Shown: positions 168-5,568 of the stretch, piece after piece
Layout: every line of letters starts with the position of its first letter
Position numbering within the stretch: the stretch's first letter is position 1
NCBI GenBank assembly: GCA_020974905.1
Contig: CP087563.1
Span: 1,612,001-1,676,000, forward strand
Direction of reading: 5' to 3'
Origin: Planctomycetes bacterium syqfu
GTDB taxonomy: Bacteria; Planctomycetota; Phycisphaerae; Phycisphaerales; Phycisphaeraceae
Length of the DNA: 64,000 nucleotides
Program-made: the position numbers and the translations under genes
The notes under the pieces: generated by a model
Database searches by the model: none
What the model was told of the DNA's origin: nothing
The model's input: only the letters and a program-made list of their open reading frames with translations

Positions 168-1610
168 ATGCAGACGCATCCAGTCATTGAAGAGTTGACG
201 CGTGTGGTGGGTGAGAAAAATATTGTCACCGACCCAAACGAGCTGCGTGTCTATGAGTGTGACGGCTTTCCCATTGCCAAGGGCATGCCGCTGGCGGTGG
301 TGTTCCCGGAGAACACCGAGCAAGTCAGCGCGGTGGTCAAGGCACTGAACACGCACGAGCTTGCCATTGTCCCGCGTGGCAGTGGGACGGGTCTGGCGGG
401 CGGCAGCGTGGTCTACGACCAAGGCGTGATCATCTGCACCAGTCGGATGACGGCGATTCAGAAAGTCGATCTGGAAAACCGCGTGGCCGTGGTGCAATCG
501 GGTTGTCGCAACACGTCACTCACCGATGCCATCGCCTGCACCGGACTGCGCTTTTCACCTGACCCATCCAGCCAACGCGCTGCAACCATCGGCGGCAATG
601 TCTGCACCAATGCCGGCGGGATCAACACGCTTAAACACGGCGTAACGACGAATCACATTTTAGGTTTGGAAGTGGTCTTACCCGATGGTGAAATTCTGCT
701 CACCCGCGCCAACCAATGCTACGACGGCATCGGCCCGGACTTGCCGGGGGTGATCTGTGGCAGTGAAGGTATCCTCGGCATTGTCACCCGCGTCTGGTGT
801 CGCCTGGTACCTGACCCCAAGGCATTTCGCACGATTTACGCAGTGTTCAAATCCAACTTCGACGCATGCAAAACCGTTGCTGACGTCATCGCCTCGGGCA
901 TCCTCCCCACCAGTATGGAGATGATGGATGGTACGATGATTCAGGTCGTCGAAAACGCGTTTCACTTCGGCTTTGACACCTCTGCCGGTGCCCTGCTGCT
1001 CATTGAAGTCGATGGCGTGGACGAAATTCTGGATGACGAAATGAAAGTCATCATCGACATCGCCAAAGCCAACCATGCCTTTGACATTCAGTTCTGTAAA
1101 GACGCAGCACGGCGCGCCGAGTTGTGGTCAGCACGCAAGAAGACGTTCGGTGCGATCGGTCGGATCAGTCGCAGTTACTGCACGATGGATGCCTGCGTGC
1201 CCCGCTCGATGCTCCCCGAAGTCGTTGCCAGGGTCACCGAGATTGGCAAGGAATACGATCTGCAAATCAACAACGTCTTTCATGCTGGTGATGGCAACAT
1301 CCATCCCATCCTGCTGTTTAATGAAGATAAGCCCGAAGAAGTTCAGCGTGTCATGCAAGCCAGCGAGAAAATCCTCGAATACTGCGTCACCGTCGGGGGC
1401 ACCATCACCGGTGAACACGGCGTGGGCGTGGAAAAACTCGCACTCATGCATGCCATGTTCGACAAGCCAACTTTGAAAATGTTCCTTGATCTGAAAAAAG
1501 CTTTCGACCCCAAACAACAATTCAACGACGCCAAGCTCATCCCCAGTGACAAGATGGTGGTCGAGTTGCATCAATCCCCCTTGGCCAATGTGCCCGGAGG
1601 TGCGATGTGA
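168..1610 (+). CDS. glcD: Glycolate oxidase FAD subunit GlcD
   Basis: This 480-residue FAD-linked oxidase is the catalytic subunit of glycolate oxidase, which turns glycolate into glyoxylate and passes electrons through GlcE and GlcF to the membrane quinone pool. The N-terminal half has the PCMH-type FAD-binding pattern (PRGSGTGLAGG near residue 70, then GGNVCTNAGG near 145). The C-terminal half has the family signatures HAGDGNIHP (about 370) and TGEHGVG (about 415). Length fits the family. It opens a three-gene operon; its TGA lies inside the start of glcE. The start is the first in-frame ATG before the conserved N-terminus, but no strong ribosome site precedes it. D-lactate dehydrogenase relatives look similar; the glcE and glcF neighbours decide for glycolate. 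Confidence 0.93.
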   Translation: MQTHPVIEELTRVVGEKNIVTDPNELRVYECDGFPIAKGMPLAVVFPENTEQVSAVVKALNTHELAIVPRGSGTGLAGGSVVYDQGVIICTSRMTAIQKVDLENRVAVVQSGCRNTSLTDAIACTGLRFSPDPSSQRAATIGGNVCTNAGGINTLKHGVTTNHILGLEVVLPDGEILLTRANQCYDGIGPDLPGVICGSEGILGIVTRVWCRLVPDPKAFRTIYAVFKSNFDACKTVADVIASGILPTSMEMMDGTMIQVVENAFHFGFDTSAGALLLIEVDGVDEILDDEMKVIIDIAKANHAFDIQFCKDAARRAELWSARKKTFGAIGRISRSYCTMDACVPRSMLPEVVARVTEIGKEYDLQINNVFHAGDGNIHPILLFNEDKPEEVQRVMQASEKILEYCVTVGGTITGEHGVGVEKLALMHAMFDKPTLKMFLDLKKAFDPKQQFNDAKLIPSDKMVVELHQSPLANVPGGAM

Positions 1611-2764
1611 CGTTAACCCTCTCTTCACTGGACCAACTCACCGACGCAGTCAACGAAGCGCGGACCACCCAAACGCCGCTGGTGGACTACGGCATTTATC
1701 ATGCCAAACTCGGTCACCTACCGCCTGAGAAGCATACGCCCTACACCCTCAGCGGTGATATCCTCGAACACTACGTCAACGACTTTACCGTCCGCGCCCA
1801 CGCAGGCATCACCATCGGTCAACTCAATGCCCAACTCTTTGAGCAGAACCAGTTCATCCCCATCAACTGTGATGATGATCTGACGCTCGGCGAAGTGATC
1901 AATCACAATGTCTACGGCTCACTGCGTCTGCGGTATGGCTCAATGCGTGATCAACTGCTGGGGCTGCATTACCTGGACAATGGTGCCAACGACATTCACG
2001 TCGGCGGACGCACCGTCAAGAACGTTGCAGGCCTCGACGTCACACGTTTGATGATCGGCTCGATGGGTGAACTCGGACTCATCCATCAAGCAACGCTGCG
2101 GACTTATGCTTTGCCCGCCGAAGTCGCCCGTGTGGATCTGGAATTCAAGTCGCTGGACTTACTGCCCCAGCAGATCACCGACTGGATGCTGAGCCCTGCC
2201 TATCCAAGCTCGATTTACCTGCGTCGCCTGGGGGATGCCTGGCATATTGAACTGGGTTACCTGGGCAACACCAAAGCCAATGACGTGCAGGTCAAAGCAC
2301 TCAAAGATTCGATCACCAACATTGATGACATCGAGTTAACCGACGAACGTCGCGTCACCGTGCCCGAGCATTTGAAGTTCGGCAATCAGGGTCGAAGCTG
2401 GCAACGCAAAACCAAAACACTCGTCAAAGCCATCTGCCCCCCGCGTGAGATTCCCCTGCTGGCAAACACCCTTGCTGACATGGGCGTCACGCAGATCGGT
2501 GGCTACCCCACGCATGGCTGTCTACTTGCAGCAGGTGCGCTGACATCCGAAATGGACCTCAAACTCCAGGACATGCTCCAGCCTATCGGCGGGATGCGTC
2601 AGTGGATTATCCCACCGGTTTACGATGACGGCCGAACGTCCTGCGTCACTCCCTTTGCCCCCGAGCAACCCGACTGGGCTTTTCTCCGTCGCATCAAGAA
2701 AACCATGGACCCCCGGAATTTATTTAATCCAGGACGCTTTATCGAAACGGAGGAATCAGCATGA
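1607..2764 (+). CDS. glcE: Glycolate oxidase subunit GlcE (FAD-binding)
   Basis: This 385-residue protein is the second FAD-binding subunit of glycolate oxidase. It has a shortened PCMH fold with the motif GGRTVKNVAGLDVTRLM near residues 125-140, typical of GlcE, and ends with the family pattern DPRNLFNPGRF. It starts with GTG, overlapping the glcD stop, and a strong ribosome site (CGGAGG at 1595-1600) sits 6 nt upstream, which settles the start. Its own stop overlaps the glcF start. Together with glcD and glcF it should form the membrane-associated GlcDEF complex feeding glyoxylate into central metabolism. Confidence 0.9.
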   Translation: MTLTLSSLDQLTDAVNEARTTQTPLVDYGIYHAKLGHLPPEKHTPYTLSGDILEHYVNDFTVRAHAGITIGQLNAQLFEQNQFIPINCDDDLTLGEVINHNVYGSLRLRYGSMRDQLLGLHYLDNGANDIHVGGRTVKNVAGLDVTRLMIGSMGELGLIHQATLRTYALPAEVARVDLEFKSLDLLPQQITDWMLSPAYPSSIYLRRLGDAWHIELGYLGNTKANDVQVKALKDSITNIDDIELTDERRVTVPEHLKFGNQGRSWQRKTKTLVKAICPPREIPLLANTLADMGVTQIGGYPTHGCLLAAGALTSEMDLKLQDMLQPIGGMRQWIIPPVYDDGRTSCVTPFAPEQPDWAFLRRIKKTMDPRNLFNPGRFIETEESA

Positions 2765-4137
2765 CGCAGACCTCCACCCCATCTTCATGCAAAGTGGTCT
2801 CCGGACTGGGTGATCAGGCAGCGGGTAAACCCGTCGGGCTGGACATCCTGAATCTGGATGATCATGCCTACGACCGCGCGCTGTCCTGTGTGCACTGTGG
2901 TTTGTGTTTACCGGTCTGCCCGACCTACACGCAAAACGGTCTGGAGTCCGACTCCCCGCGTGGCCGAATTTACATGATGAAAGGCCTTGCTGACGGCGTG
3001 GTTGAACCCACGGACAACGTGCTTAAACACCTTGATCTGTGTCTGGATTGCCAAGCCTGCGAAACCATCTGCCCCTCAGGTGTGGTGTATCACGAACTGC
3101 TTGAAGACACGCGCGCCAAACTCAAACCCAAACGCAAATTCAAGTTCACCGACAAGCTGGTGCAGTCGATTTTCCTTTACGGTTTCACCAAGCCGCTGCG
3201 TTTGAAACTCATGCTTTTACCCGTGCGGATCATGCAGAAACTCGGCTTGTACAAACTCGTTCTCAAATCCGGCATCACCAAAGCACTGCCCAATCAATTC
3301 CAGAAGATGCAGCAGATGCTCCCCGATGACGGACCGCTTTGGGAACGGGGCCTGCAAGCCTACTACCCGCCGACGGACAACACCGTGGATGGCAAGCCCC
3401 GCGCCCGCGTTGCCATGTTCCCCGGCTGTGTCGGCAGTGTGATGTATCAAGACGTCAACCGCAAAACGATTGAAGTCCTGCAACACTTAGGCTGTGAGAT
3501 TATCGTCCCACGCAAGGCGACTTGCTGCGGTGCGATTCATCATCATGCCGGTGAAGACAAAGACGCTCGCGACTTTGCCCGTCAGAACATCAAGGCGTAT
3601 CTGAACGTCAAAGACAAGCCGGACTTTATCGTGAATAACATTGCAGGCTGCGGTGCAGGCTTGCGTGAGTTTGATCATCTGCTTCGTGATGACACGCAGT
3701 ACGCTGATCAAGCCAAGGACTTTGTTTCGCGTGTGCGTGATGTCTGCGAATTGATTGATGAGCTTGATCCGCCGACGCCGTCGAATCGTGTTGCCAAGAC
3801 GATCACGTATCACCATGCTTGTCACTTGCTTCACGCTCAGCGTGCTGGTGATCCGCCGTTGCGTTTGCTCAAACGGGTGATGGGTTTGAAGATCGTGCCC
3901 TTGGAAGAAGCCGACTTTTGCTGCGGTGCTGCGGGGACGTATAACCTGACGCAACCGGAGATGGCCATGGATTTAGCCGAACGCAAAATCCGTCACATCC
4001 AGGAAAGCGGTGCATCGATCGTGGTGATGAGCAACGTGGGCTGCGCCATGCAGATCACCTCCGAAGCCAAAAGGTTGGGTGTAAGCTTGACCACTGAACA
4101 TCCGGTGGAGATTTTGCATCGGGCGTATCTGGGGTGA
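2761..4137 (+). CDS. glcF: Glycolate oxidase iron-sulfur subunit GlcF
   Basis: This 458-residue protein carries electrons from the flavin subunits to quinone. Two 4Fe-4S ferredoxin motifs are visible near the N-terminus (CVHCGLCLPVCPTY near 42-55 and CLDCQACETICPSG near 93-106). Two cysteine-rich CCG domains follow, with CCGAIHHHAGED near 255 and CCGAAGTYN near 385. This is the normal GlcF architecture and length. ATG at 2761 overlaps the glcE stop (ATGA), so translation is probably coupled. No transporter or glyoxylate-handling enzyme follows. The next feature is a tRNA about 40 nt downstream on the same strand. Confidence 0.92.
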   Translation: MTQTSTPSSCKVVSGLGDQAAGKPVGLDILNLDDHAYDRALSCVHCGLCLPVCPTYTQNGLESDSPRGRIYMMKGLADGVVEPTDNVLKHLDLCLDCQACETICPSGVVYHELLEDTRAKLKPKRKFKFTDKLVQSIFLYGFTKPLRLKLMLLPVRIMQKLGLYKLVLKSGITKALPNQFQKMQQMLPDDGPLWERGLQAYYPPTDNTVDGKPRARVAMFPGCVGSVMYQDVNRKTIEVLQHLGCEIIVPRKATCCGAIHHHAGEDKDARDFARQNIKAYLNVKDKPDFIVNNIAGCGAGLREFDHLLRDDTQYADQAKDFVSRVRDVCELIDELDPPTPSNRVAKTITYHHACHLLHAQRAGDPPLRLLKRVMGLKIVPLEEADFCCGAAGTYNLTQPEMAMDLAERKIRHIQESGASIVVMSNVGCAMQITSEAKRLGVSLTTEHPVEILHRAYLG

Positions 4138-4176
4138 ACGTGACATCCACGACATTCTGAATAGCATCAACTATTC

Positions 4177-4289
4177 GGCCGGGTAGGTATAACTGGGAAT
4201 ACCGGCGAGTTTGAAACTCGTTTTGGGGTGGTTTACACCTCAAATGGCGCGAAAGCGGCATAGTGTTGGTTCGAATCCAACCCCGGCCA
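4177..4289 (+). tRNA. tRNA-Ser (anticodon UGA), atypical, 113 nt
   Basis: A full cloverleaf can be drawn. The acceptor stem GGCCGGG (4177-4183) pairs perfectly with 4282-4288. The D stem is GGTA/TACC (4186-4189, 4200-4203). The anticodon stem GCGAG/CTCGT encloses loop TTTGAAA (4210-4216), giving anticodon TGA. The T arm is GTTGG-TTCGAAT-CCAAC (4265-4281). CCA is not encoded. The variable region is 43 nt instead of the usual 15-20 of serine tRNAs. It forms two hairpins: a 9-bp stem with one G-T pair (4222-4230 with 4236-4244) and a GAAA-capped stem (4245-4250 with 4255-4260) containing a G-G mismatch. Position 14 appears to be T instead of the near-invariant A, and the discriminator is A. Serine identity is inferred from the anticodon and long variable arm. 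It may be functional, specialised or decaying. Confidence 0.72.
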
Positions 4290-4346
4290 TTTATCTCAAA
4301 ATACAAACGCAATCGCGCTAAACCGCAAGCGGTTTATGTGTGCTTG

Positions 4347-5387
4347 TTATTTCAAATCGCCCAACAACGTTGGGATGATTTTTTCTGCGACGCTCTTGCC
4401 CAGCAGGTGAATGCCATCGCCGTCGGGGTGGAGCTGGTCGGGCATGTGGTTGACCATGTCAGGGCCGAAGAGTTCCAGGCCATCGAAGTAGAACAGGTGT
4501 TGATCGTTGTCATGCATCTGCACGGTTTGAACAGCGATCTTGACCTGGTTGCGGTAGTCGCTGAGTGACATGCCCACGCCATTGGGGACGTCTTCGCGTG
4601 GCGGGGAACTGATGGGTGAGATGATCATCAGCGGTGTGACGGGGTGCCCTTCTCGGATGGTCTTGATCATGCCAATGACGTTGGGGATGAAGGAGCGTTC
4701 GTTGTAGCTGCAACTGCCCTGAATGTTAATGCCAACGCAGCAACTGATGATGTCTGCTGAACAGCCACGGATGTCGTTAAGCACCATGGGGTCGAGGTGA
4801 CATTGGCCGCCAAAGCCAAGTGAGGTGACGTTCAGCCCACACGCAGCAGCCACCAACACCGGCCAGACTTCCGAGGGGCCGTGTGCCTGTCGACCGTGGG
4901 TGATGGAACTGCCATAGGTCAGCCACTTGGTGCGGGTGTCGTTAAACGGTTTGGTGGTGGCGTTATCATCGATGGCCACACTTTGCACCAGTGTCGGGTG
5001 GAACTGGTCAAGCCAAATCTCCAGTCGGTGTTCGCCTTTGGGGATGTCGATGAATTTGAACTCGCAGACTTTGTTCACTTCGTTGGGAAGTTTGACGCGT
5101 TGATGGAACTTGCCATCGACGGTCAGGTCCATGCGGAACCATTCGTCCATGTTCTCTTCACTGGTGTATCGCTTGTGGGTCGCGGTGACGGTGAGCGTGG
5201 TGGTATCACTGATGAGATTCATGCGAACCCCAGCCGGTGATGAGGCACGACCGATCAGACCTTCGTGGTGATACAACGGCAGGTCATCAAATCGTAGACG
5301 CCAGGGACGAATCCCGTCATCCGATCTTTCGAGACTGATGTGACCGGCGAATTGGATGGGACCGTTTTGGAGTGGGAGATTTTGCAT
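4347..5387 (-). CDS. SGNH/GDSL-family hydrolase
   Basis: This protein of about 346 residues has the SGNH esterase blocks in order: GSSITHG (nucleophile Ser), a Gly block at GFGGQCH, GINIQG, and DQLHPDGDGIHLLG with the catalytic Asp and His. An N-terminal beta-sandwich-like region of about 150 residues precedes the catalytic part, as in carbohydrate esterases acting on acetylated sugars. No signal peptide is seen with the chosen start. Longer in-frame starts exist up to 5525, but those residues look unlike protein, so ATG at 5385-5387 is preferred even though its ribosome site is weak. It is divergent from pdxJ. The substrate cannot be told from sequence. Confidence 0.8.
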   Translation of the reverse strand: MQNLPLQNGPIQFAGHISLERSDDGIRPWRLRFDDLPLYHHEGLIGRASSPAGVRMNLISDTTTLTVTATHKRYTSEENMDEWFRMDLTVDGKFHQRVKLPNEVNKVCEFKFIDIPKGEHRLEIWLDQFHPTLVQSVAIDDNATTKPFNDTRTKWLTYGSSITHGRQAHGPSEVWPVLVAAACGLNVTSLGFGGQCHLDPMVLNDIRGCSADIISCCVGINIQGSCSYNERSFIPNVIGMIKTIREGHPVTPLMIISPISSPPREDVPNGVGMSLSDYRNQVKIAVQTVQMHDNDQHLFYFDGLELFGPDMVNHMPDQLHPDGDGIHLLGKSVAEKIIPTLLGDLK

Positions 5388-5568
5388 GGGGATTGAATGT
5401 AGTTTGACCGGGTCAGTTGTCAAGGATCGAAAACGCGAGCAGTTGGCCCAAGCAATCGGATGGGTGATTGGATGTCTGTTGATTTTGTCATGGTTACGGG
5501 TGCATAACGGTAAAAAAACATCCATAAAAGGTACAACAAGCTCATTTGGAGTAAATAGGCGTCAGAAT

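Follow-up and report, generated by a model that had tools for sequence, protein, structure and literature searches.

Locus and architecture

The window is a stretch of 64,000 nucleotides (G000:C1:1612001-1676000) from a 7.38-Mb single-contig genome, designated G000; G001, G002 and G003 are other genomes of the same genus. Near its left end, a 113-nt tRNA-type gene is located between a glcF-like gene and a convergent hydrolase gene (Table 1), and the neighbors that we examined comprise glcDEF-like genes, the GDSL hydrolase and pdxJ. A preliminary description, made from the letters alone, had proposed a tRNA with a UGA anticodon at this position. It proved sound: cmscan gave exactly the same coordinates, strand and length, and the gene matched the general tRNA family RF00005 over the full model (1-71 of 71) with 46.6 bits (E 8.5e-7), well over the curated cut-off of 29. 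This is the sole Rfam match in the window at gathering scores. ARAGORN, at the settings used here, missed the gene, and a gene finder of this kind can, at such settings, miss tRNA genes of this build. The minimum-energy fold from RNAfold has -54.2 kcal/mol (z -6.0), and none of 200 shuffled sequences folded as well.

Table 1. Position of the two-hairpin tRNA, its parts and its flanks (numbering of the window)
Feature	Position	Strand	Basis
Upstream neighbor, glcF-like iron-sulfur protein	2761-4137	+	PF02754 (CCG), Fer4 domains
Candidate sigma-70-like promoter, GTGACA-16-TAGCAT	4140-4167	+	consensus scan; function putative
tRNA-type RNA, anticodon UGA, A73, no encoded CCA	4177-4289	+	RF00005, fold, G001 copy
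Acceptor stem, 5' strand GGCCGGG, pairs with 4282-4288	4177-4183	+	fold
D-arm, 5-bp stem GGUAU/AUACC, loop AACUGGGA	4186-4203	+	fold
Anticodon arm, 5 bp, loop UUUGAAA, UGA at 4212-4214	4205-4221	+	cmscan
Variable-region hairpin 1, 8-9 bp, loop GUUUA	4222-4244 (4223-4243 in the minimum-energy fold)	+	
Variable-region hairpin 2, GAAA loop, then 3-nt linker AGU before the T-stem	4244-4261	+	
T-arm, GUUGG UUCGAAU CCAAC	4265-4281	+	cmscan
Discriminator base A73	4289	+	tRNA numbering
Hairpin repeat, AAACCGCAAGCGGTTT core, possible terminator	4313-4337	+	recurs in genus
Downstream neighbor, GDSL/SGNH hydrolase, convergent	4347-5525	-	PF21181, PF14606, PF13472

The stems of the cloverleaf (acceptor 7 bp; D, anticodon and T 5 bp each) are all intact, as the preliminary description had said of the four standard arms, and the acceptor/T arrangement is 7/5. 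The anticodon stem, U33, G18G19 and the T-loop are all canonical. The variable region is 43 nt long and is predicted to form two hairpins, of which the second is capped by GAAA, again as first described; folded alone, this region has a z of -4.8. The nine pairs originally drawn for hairpin 1 stand as an alternative drawing, the minimum-energy fold having eight; in the same fold hairpin 2 consists of 3+3 pairs around a G.G mismatch and takes in A68. Hairpin 2 lies near the T-arm in the manner of the single V-arm of class II tRNAs, and hairpin 1 is the extra element, 5' of the V-arm. The variable region is thus long, as in class II, yet with two predicted hairpins in place of one. Among 47 other numbered tRNAs of G000 (the 49 Rfam matches less the two-hairpin tRNA and one weak match, from a list that may be incomplete with 150 of 272 candidates scored), variable regions measure 4-22 nt: 4-5 nt in most, and 13-22 nt in 11 tRNAs for Ser, Leu, Tyr and Cys. 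Hairpin 1 was also considered as a repeated element and rejected as such, for it occurs at one place in G000 at up to three mismatches.

The D-arm allows two readings. Taking the stem as 4 bp starting from G10 places U at position 14 and a G-C pair at 11-24, neither of which is seen in any of the other 47 numbered tRNAs, all of which have A14. When the fifth pair is regarded as an extra basal pair, A14, A15, G18, G19, A21 and U11-A24 (pyrimidine-11/purine-24) are regained, and the loop AACUGGGA is one base removed from the loop AAUUGGGA of the G000 tRNA-Ala(CGC). We take the extra basal pair to be the better reading, with the D-loop then normal. The departure from A at position 14, noted at the outset, accordingly belongs to the 4-bp reading and is largely an effect of numbering. 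A 5-bp D-stem is not special alone, as it is found in 3 of the 48 other tRNA matches in G000 under a loose pairing test. An A15-U48 pair is possible. Positions 8-9 are U8-A9, compared to U8-G9 in all 11 long-arm tRNAs of G000; in this genome U8-A9 and a D-stem paired throughout are traits of class I tRNAs, and we counted them against a serine reading.

The candidate promoter matches the consensus at 9 of 12 positions (0.3 such sites are expected in shuffles of the region) and ends 9 nt before the 5' end of the tRNA. Both hexamers are kept in G001, where the spacer is 17 nt. Downstream, the 25-nt hairpin repeat shows no change in G001, within a spacer that has otherwise diverged, and it may be a terminator; the terminator scan did not flag it on the plus strand, and flagged 4360-4374, within the terminal part of the hydrolase gene. 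The repeat, with its AAACCGCAAGCGGTTT core, was found at 12 further places in G000 among 13 scored out of 118 candidates, and it matches many places in G000, G001 and G003. The lack of an encoded CCA is normal for this genome, as CCA follows none of its 49 tRNA matches.

Isotype, conservation and distribution

The ordinary serine tRNAs of G000 carry the anticodons UGA, GCU, CGA and GGA. The search for a normal tRNA-Ser(UGA), which the preliminary description had called for, located it at G000:C1:3783099-3783185, and the two-hairpin tRNA gene is therefore supernumerary. The latter has the serine anticodon UGA, which reads UCA, and the pairs G1-C72 and G2-C71 (GGCCGGG/CCCGGCC) expected of a tRNA-Ser. 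Its discriminator base is A73, compared to G73 in all four serine tRNAs of G000; in E. coli, G73 acts in vivo as a determinant for serine (PMC9976931). From the V-arm to the T-stem the linker measures 3 nt, in comparison with 1 nt in the four serine tRNAs and 2 nt in those for leucine. We compared the bodies of the tRNAs over 63 numbered positions, leaving out the anticodon, the variable region and one D-stem pair of the two-hairpin tRNA. Its body agrees with the four serine tRNAs (UGA, GCU, CGA, GGA) at 36, 36, 33 and 33 positions, with those for leucine at 27-40, with tRNA-Cys at 43, and at most at 45, with an initiator-like tRNA. Each serine tRNA has another serine tRNA as its nearest neighbor (47-54 of 63), a grouping from which the two-hairpin tRNA stays apart. 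In a plain alignment without hairpin 1, tRNA-Cys is nearest and tRNA-Leu(UAA) second.

Covariance models built from 8 serine and 9 leucine tRNAs gave a similar picture. With the serine model, the two-hairpin tRNA scored 41.4 bits, the same as tRNA-Lys(UUU), below the Tyr, Cys and Leu tRNAs tested, and against 103.4-104.3 for tRNA-Ser(UGA); the leucine model gave 44.5 bits, compared to 43.6 for tRNA-Lys(UUU) and 93.8-96.4 for real leucine tRNAs. The extra hairpin lowers the scores of the two-hairpin tRNA somewhat, and the training sets included some of the high-scoring tRNAs, though not L108, L081 and L097. The gene is a tRNA by the family test and departs from a standard tRNA-Ser in two tested features. 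The earlier notion of a specialized serine tRNA has its main basis in the anticodon; the body is no nearer to serine than to several other isotypes, and A73 and the 3-nt linker also speak against it. Judged from sequence, only the anticodon is clearly serine-like. Each of the four congeneric genomes (G000-G003) has one full match to SerRS; no extra SerRS was seen in them, apart from 19-bit matches in G002 and G003 that are weak and partial. The codon UCA accounts for 137 of 902 serine codons (15%) in the 37 long non-overlapping ORFs of the window.

G001 has a copy at the same place with 111 of 113 bases identical, so the comparison of homologous loci shows the cloverleaf to be kept in one relative. 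Hairpin 2 accounts for both differences, the first replacing the G.G mismatch by a U.G pair and the second falling in the loop. Hairpin 1 is identical in the two genomes. The glcF genes are identical at 1250 of 1377 positions (127 differ), with differences at 105 of 459 third codon positions. In the upstream spacer 35 of 40 columns are identical, and in the 55 columns downstream of the tRNA 37 (67%). Under a binomial model, two or fewer differences in 113 would arise with a probability of about 1e-10 if the third-codon rate (105/459) applied, and of 0.0014 under the whole-glcF rate (127/1377). As a yardstick we took the 39 further tRNA matches that the Rfam search listed for G001: 36 are identical to a tRNA of G000, and the remaining three have 1, 2 and 5 differences from the nearest G000 tRNA of equal length; the two-hairpin tRNA therefore behaves nearly like an ordinary tRNA. 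With only two genomes carrying it, there is almost no covariation support for the structure. The rates of 2/113 and 105/459, from this one genome pair, do not point to relaxed constraint, and they contradict the suggestion of a decaying gene. The gene does not look like one in visible decay, and it is very probably real and under selection.

The two-hairpin tRNA was found in two of 51 genomes of the family, G000 and G001 (140-141 bits with the element model). At E 1e-5 the model matched 12 of the 51, the other ten matches being ordinary tRNAs for Leu (4), Ser (4) and Cys (2) of 83-88 nt and at most 48 bits. In wider samples, for which the best 9-12 candidates per genome were scored and diverged forms could be missed, the matches were the two carriers, the tRNA-Leu of G025 already found in the family, and an 85-nt match in G179 (93.8 bits with the leucine model) among 301 genomes of the order, G000 and an 86-nt match in G478 (leucine model 96.1) among 397 genomes of the class, and G000 only among 392 genomes of the phylum. 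BLAST against 400 genomes of the order returned the two carriers only, with the best two candidates per genome considered. An exact-pattern scan over 84,980 species hit six contigs, of which the element model confirms only that of Phycisphaeraceae bacterium NAT22, and no further carrier. The phages and plasmids searched gave no match to the two-hairpin tRNA. Of six pattern scans of IMG/VR, four gave none either, and the matches obtained in the other two score 11-12 bits with the element model.

Within the genus, G002 (78% complete) has the hydrolase gene about 45 nt after glcF, compared to 209 nt in the window, with a hydrolase protein 66% identical and no tRNA between the two genes. In G003 (95% complete) no hydrolase gene was seen within 1.5 kb downstream of glcF. 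No tRNA match longer than 91 nt was seen among the candidates scored in G002 (150 of 199) or G003 (150 of 273). Since GlcF identity to G000 is 97% in G001, 87% in G003 and 78% in G002, the simplest history has one gain, in the ancestor shared by G000 and G001; the alternative, loss in both G002 and G003, is less simple.

Interpretation and alternatives

The best reading of these sequences is, in our opinion, that of a recently gained, selected and unconventional accessory tRNA. Our full account, which we hold only tentatively and at somewhat less than even odds, is that of a functioning tRNA gene that is supernumerary, confined to this lineage and unusual in build; that its RNA is processed as a tRNA is probable. 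The ancestor shared by G000 and G001 would most simply have gained it, between glcF and the hydrolase gene, as a small unit of promoter, tRNA and hairpin repeat. It would be transcribed from its own promoter, the RNA would be trimmed by RNase P and 3' nucleases and then given CCA, and both hairpins would be kept in the mature molecule. Charging with serine by the single SerRS, by way of the long variable region and G1-C72/G2-C71, has in our estimate less than an even chance, and so does weak or conditional decoding of UCA alongside the normal tRNA-Ser(UGA). We lean to this pair of steps because the frequency of UCA (137 of 902 serine codons) would make efficient insertion of another residue costly. 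Hairpin 1 may be a tolerated or a protein-binding extra, by analogy with aptamer-tagged V-arm tRNAs from the laboratory. PMC7590224 describes allo-tRNAs with small hairpins as the V-arm tip that were made translationally active in E. coli, and states that earlier aptamer-fused tRNAs usually lost activity, with an aptamer in the V-loop leaving marginal activity only.

The chief rival is an RNA that works off the ribosome. Here the cloverleaf would serve processing and stability, and perhaps charging, and the doubled variable region would bind a protein, the RNA acting as an adaptor for non-ribosomal aminoacyl transfer or as a regulatory RNA. The redundant anticodon is consistent with such a role, as are the identity of hairpin 1 in both species and a body unlike any isotype of G000 (at most 45 of 63, to the initiator-like tRNA, with tRNA-Cys nearest in the plain alignment). 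The canonical anticodon stem, U33, G18G19 and T-loop argue against it, since a non-decoding RNA need not keep these, and no partner gene is evident among the glcDEF-like genes, the GDSL hydrolase gene and pdxJ. We consider this rival possible and on balance unlikely. A natural "tagged" charged tRNA, in which the second variable-region hairpin would dock a dedicated protein and the amino acid would go to conditional UCA decoding or to non-ribosomal transfer, is a speculative proposal to which we attach little weight.

A recently acquired passenger or functionless tRNA pseudogene, conserved by chance or by the closeness of the genomes, would account for the occurrence in just two of 51 family genomes, the supernumerary anticodon and the low tRNA score. 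It sits poorly with intact cloverleaf stems, conserved promoter hexamers, and two differences in 113 where 23% of third codon positions and 33% of the downstream spacer differ, and we judge it improbable. The preliminary description had tied a pseudogene to a normal tRNA-Ser(UGA) elsewhere combined with decay; the former exists, and conservation speaks against the conclusion. Still less probable is a missense tRNA that would carry some amino acid other than serine and read UCA at a low level for regulated mistranslation. A73 with A15-U48, as in the five leucine tRNAs of G000, and the leucine score slightly above the serine score suggest it; tRNA-Lys(UUU) does nearly as well with the same leucine model, and a share of 15% of serine codons for UCA weighs against it. 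Finally, hairpin 1 could be an intron-like insert removed from the precursor, which by inspection would leave one V-arm of about the usual length near the T-arm of an ordinary class II tRNA; we regard this as very improbable, as hairpin 1 does not differ between the two species and has a single place in the genome, the rest of the molecule would still not be serine-like, and we know of no bacterial machinery for intron removal at this tRNA position. The inserted or processed hairpin of the preliminary description thus survives as an insertion, which fits the anatomy; nothing seen suggests removal.

Known systems and other tRNA-like loci

The accessory tRNA has in common with class II tRNAs (Ser, Leu, Tyr) the 7/5 arms, a long variable region with a hairpin near the T-arm, a canonical T-loop and G18G19. 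It differs from them in its 43 nt and two hairpins (13-22 nt in the 11 long-arm tRNAs of G000), U8-A9, the paired D-stem, the 3-nt linker (1 in Ser, 2 in Leu) and A73 with a serine anticodon. Allo-tRNAs, which also occur in an 8/4 kind, and tRNA-Sec, whose anticodon is UCA, had been set aside in the preliminary description on account of the 7/5 arms, and we agree. A (9/3) or 8/4 allo-tRNA is rejected on its branch, which is 7/5 here. The resemblance to (9/3) allo-tRNAs (PMC7590224) is in a long D-stem, a long V-arm and a place outside the normal tRNA set; the present gene has two hairpins and is found in assembled genomes, in G000 beside a normal tRNA of the same anticodon. Its likeness to tRNA-Sec (RF01852) is in a D-stem longer than the common 4 bp, a large variable region and supernumerary status. 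tRNA-Sec is rejected on anatomy: the anticodon is UGA, and the 7/5 arms make an acceptor branch of 12 bp, compared to the 13 bp given for tRNA-Sec in PMC7609411. Moreover, cmscan prefers RF00005, and the gene is absent among the RF01852 matches listed (150 of 1,121 candidates scored).

The aptamer-tagged V-arm tRNAs (Mukai 2020, PMC7590224) share an extra small hairpin in the variable region of a complete tRNA; theirs forms the tip of one V-arm, whereas here the second hairpin is 5' of the V-arm and natural. We recognized no description of a natural tRNA with two variable-region hairpins in the open-licence literature, which is weak evidence of absence, and the sections of the 2020 review of non-canonical tRNAs that concern us (PMC7609411) contain no such tRNA. 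For the name tRNA-ReLu, no relevant description was found in the same literature. Should both hairpins persist in a mature, charged RNA, a natural tRNA would be seen to accommodate a second helix in its variable region. The known range of tRNA shapes would then be wider, and engineered, tagged tRNAs would have a natural model.

Several other tRNA-like loci in these genomes are of note. At L153:1464-4105 (G000:C1:237463-240104) there are two modules in inverted orientation, alike in their small genes: lipoprotein-like ORFs at 1464-2033 (+) and 3611-4105 (-), and small ORFs at 2185-2559 (+) and 2972-3370 (-). Each lipoprotein-like ORF is followed by a tRNA-like RNA, which is a weak tRNA at 2073-2143 (+; 31.7 bits) in one module and an 85-nt RNA at 3521-3605 (-) in the other; the latter matches both ends of the tmRNA model (59.9 bits) and is too short for its middle. 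Six ORFs of this locus gave no match to PHROGs at E 0.01. It is possibly a small mobile element carrying tRNA mimics. At G000:C1:4152825-4152989 (L152:2326-2490) lie two adjacent diverged tRNAs, the first an initiator-like CAU tRNA with C33 (43.2 bits) and the second called Glu(UUC) by ARAGORN and not listed by Rfam at the gathering score. A tRNA-Leu with the anticodon AAG is present at L009 (G000:C1:5254920-5255005), and ARAGORN named no GAG leucine tRNA among the tRNA loci examined. Lastly, the tRNA-Cys(GCA) of four Phycisphaeraceae loci (L008, L061, L079 and L080) has a long variable region of the class II type; that of L008 measures 14 nt and is accompanied by U8-G9.
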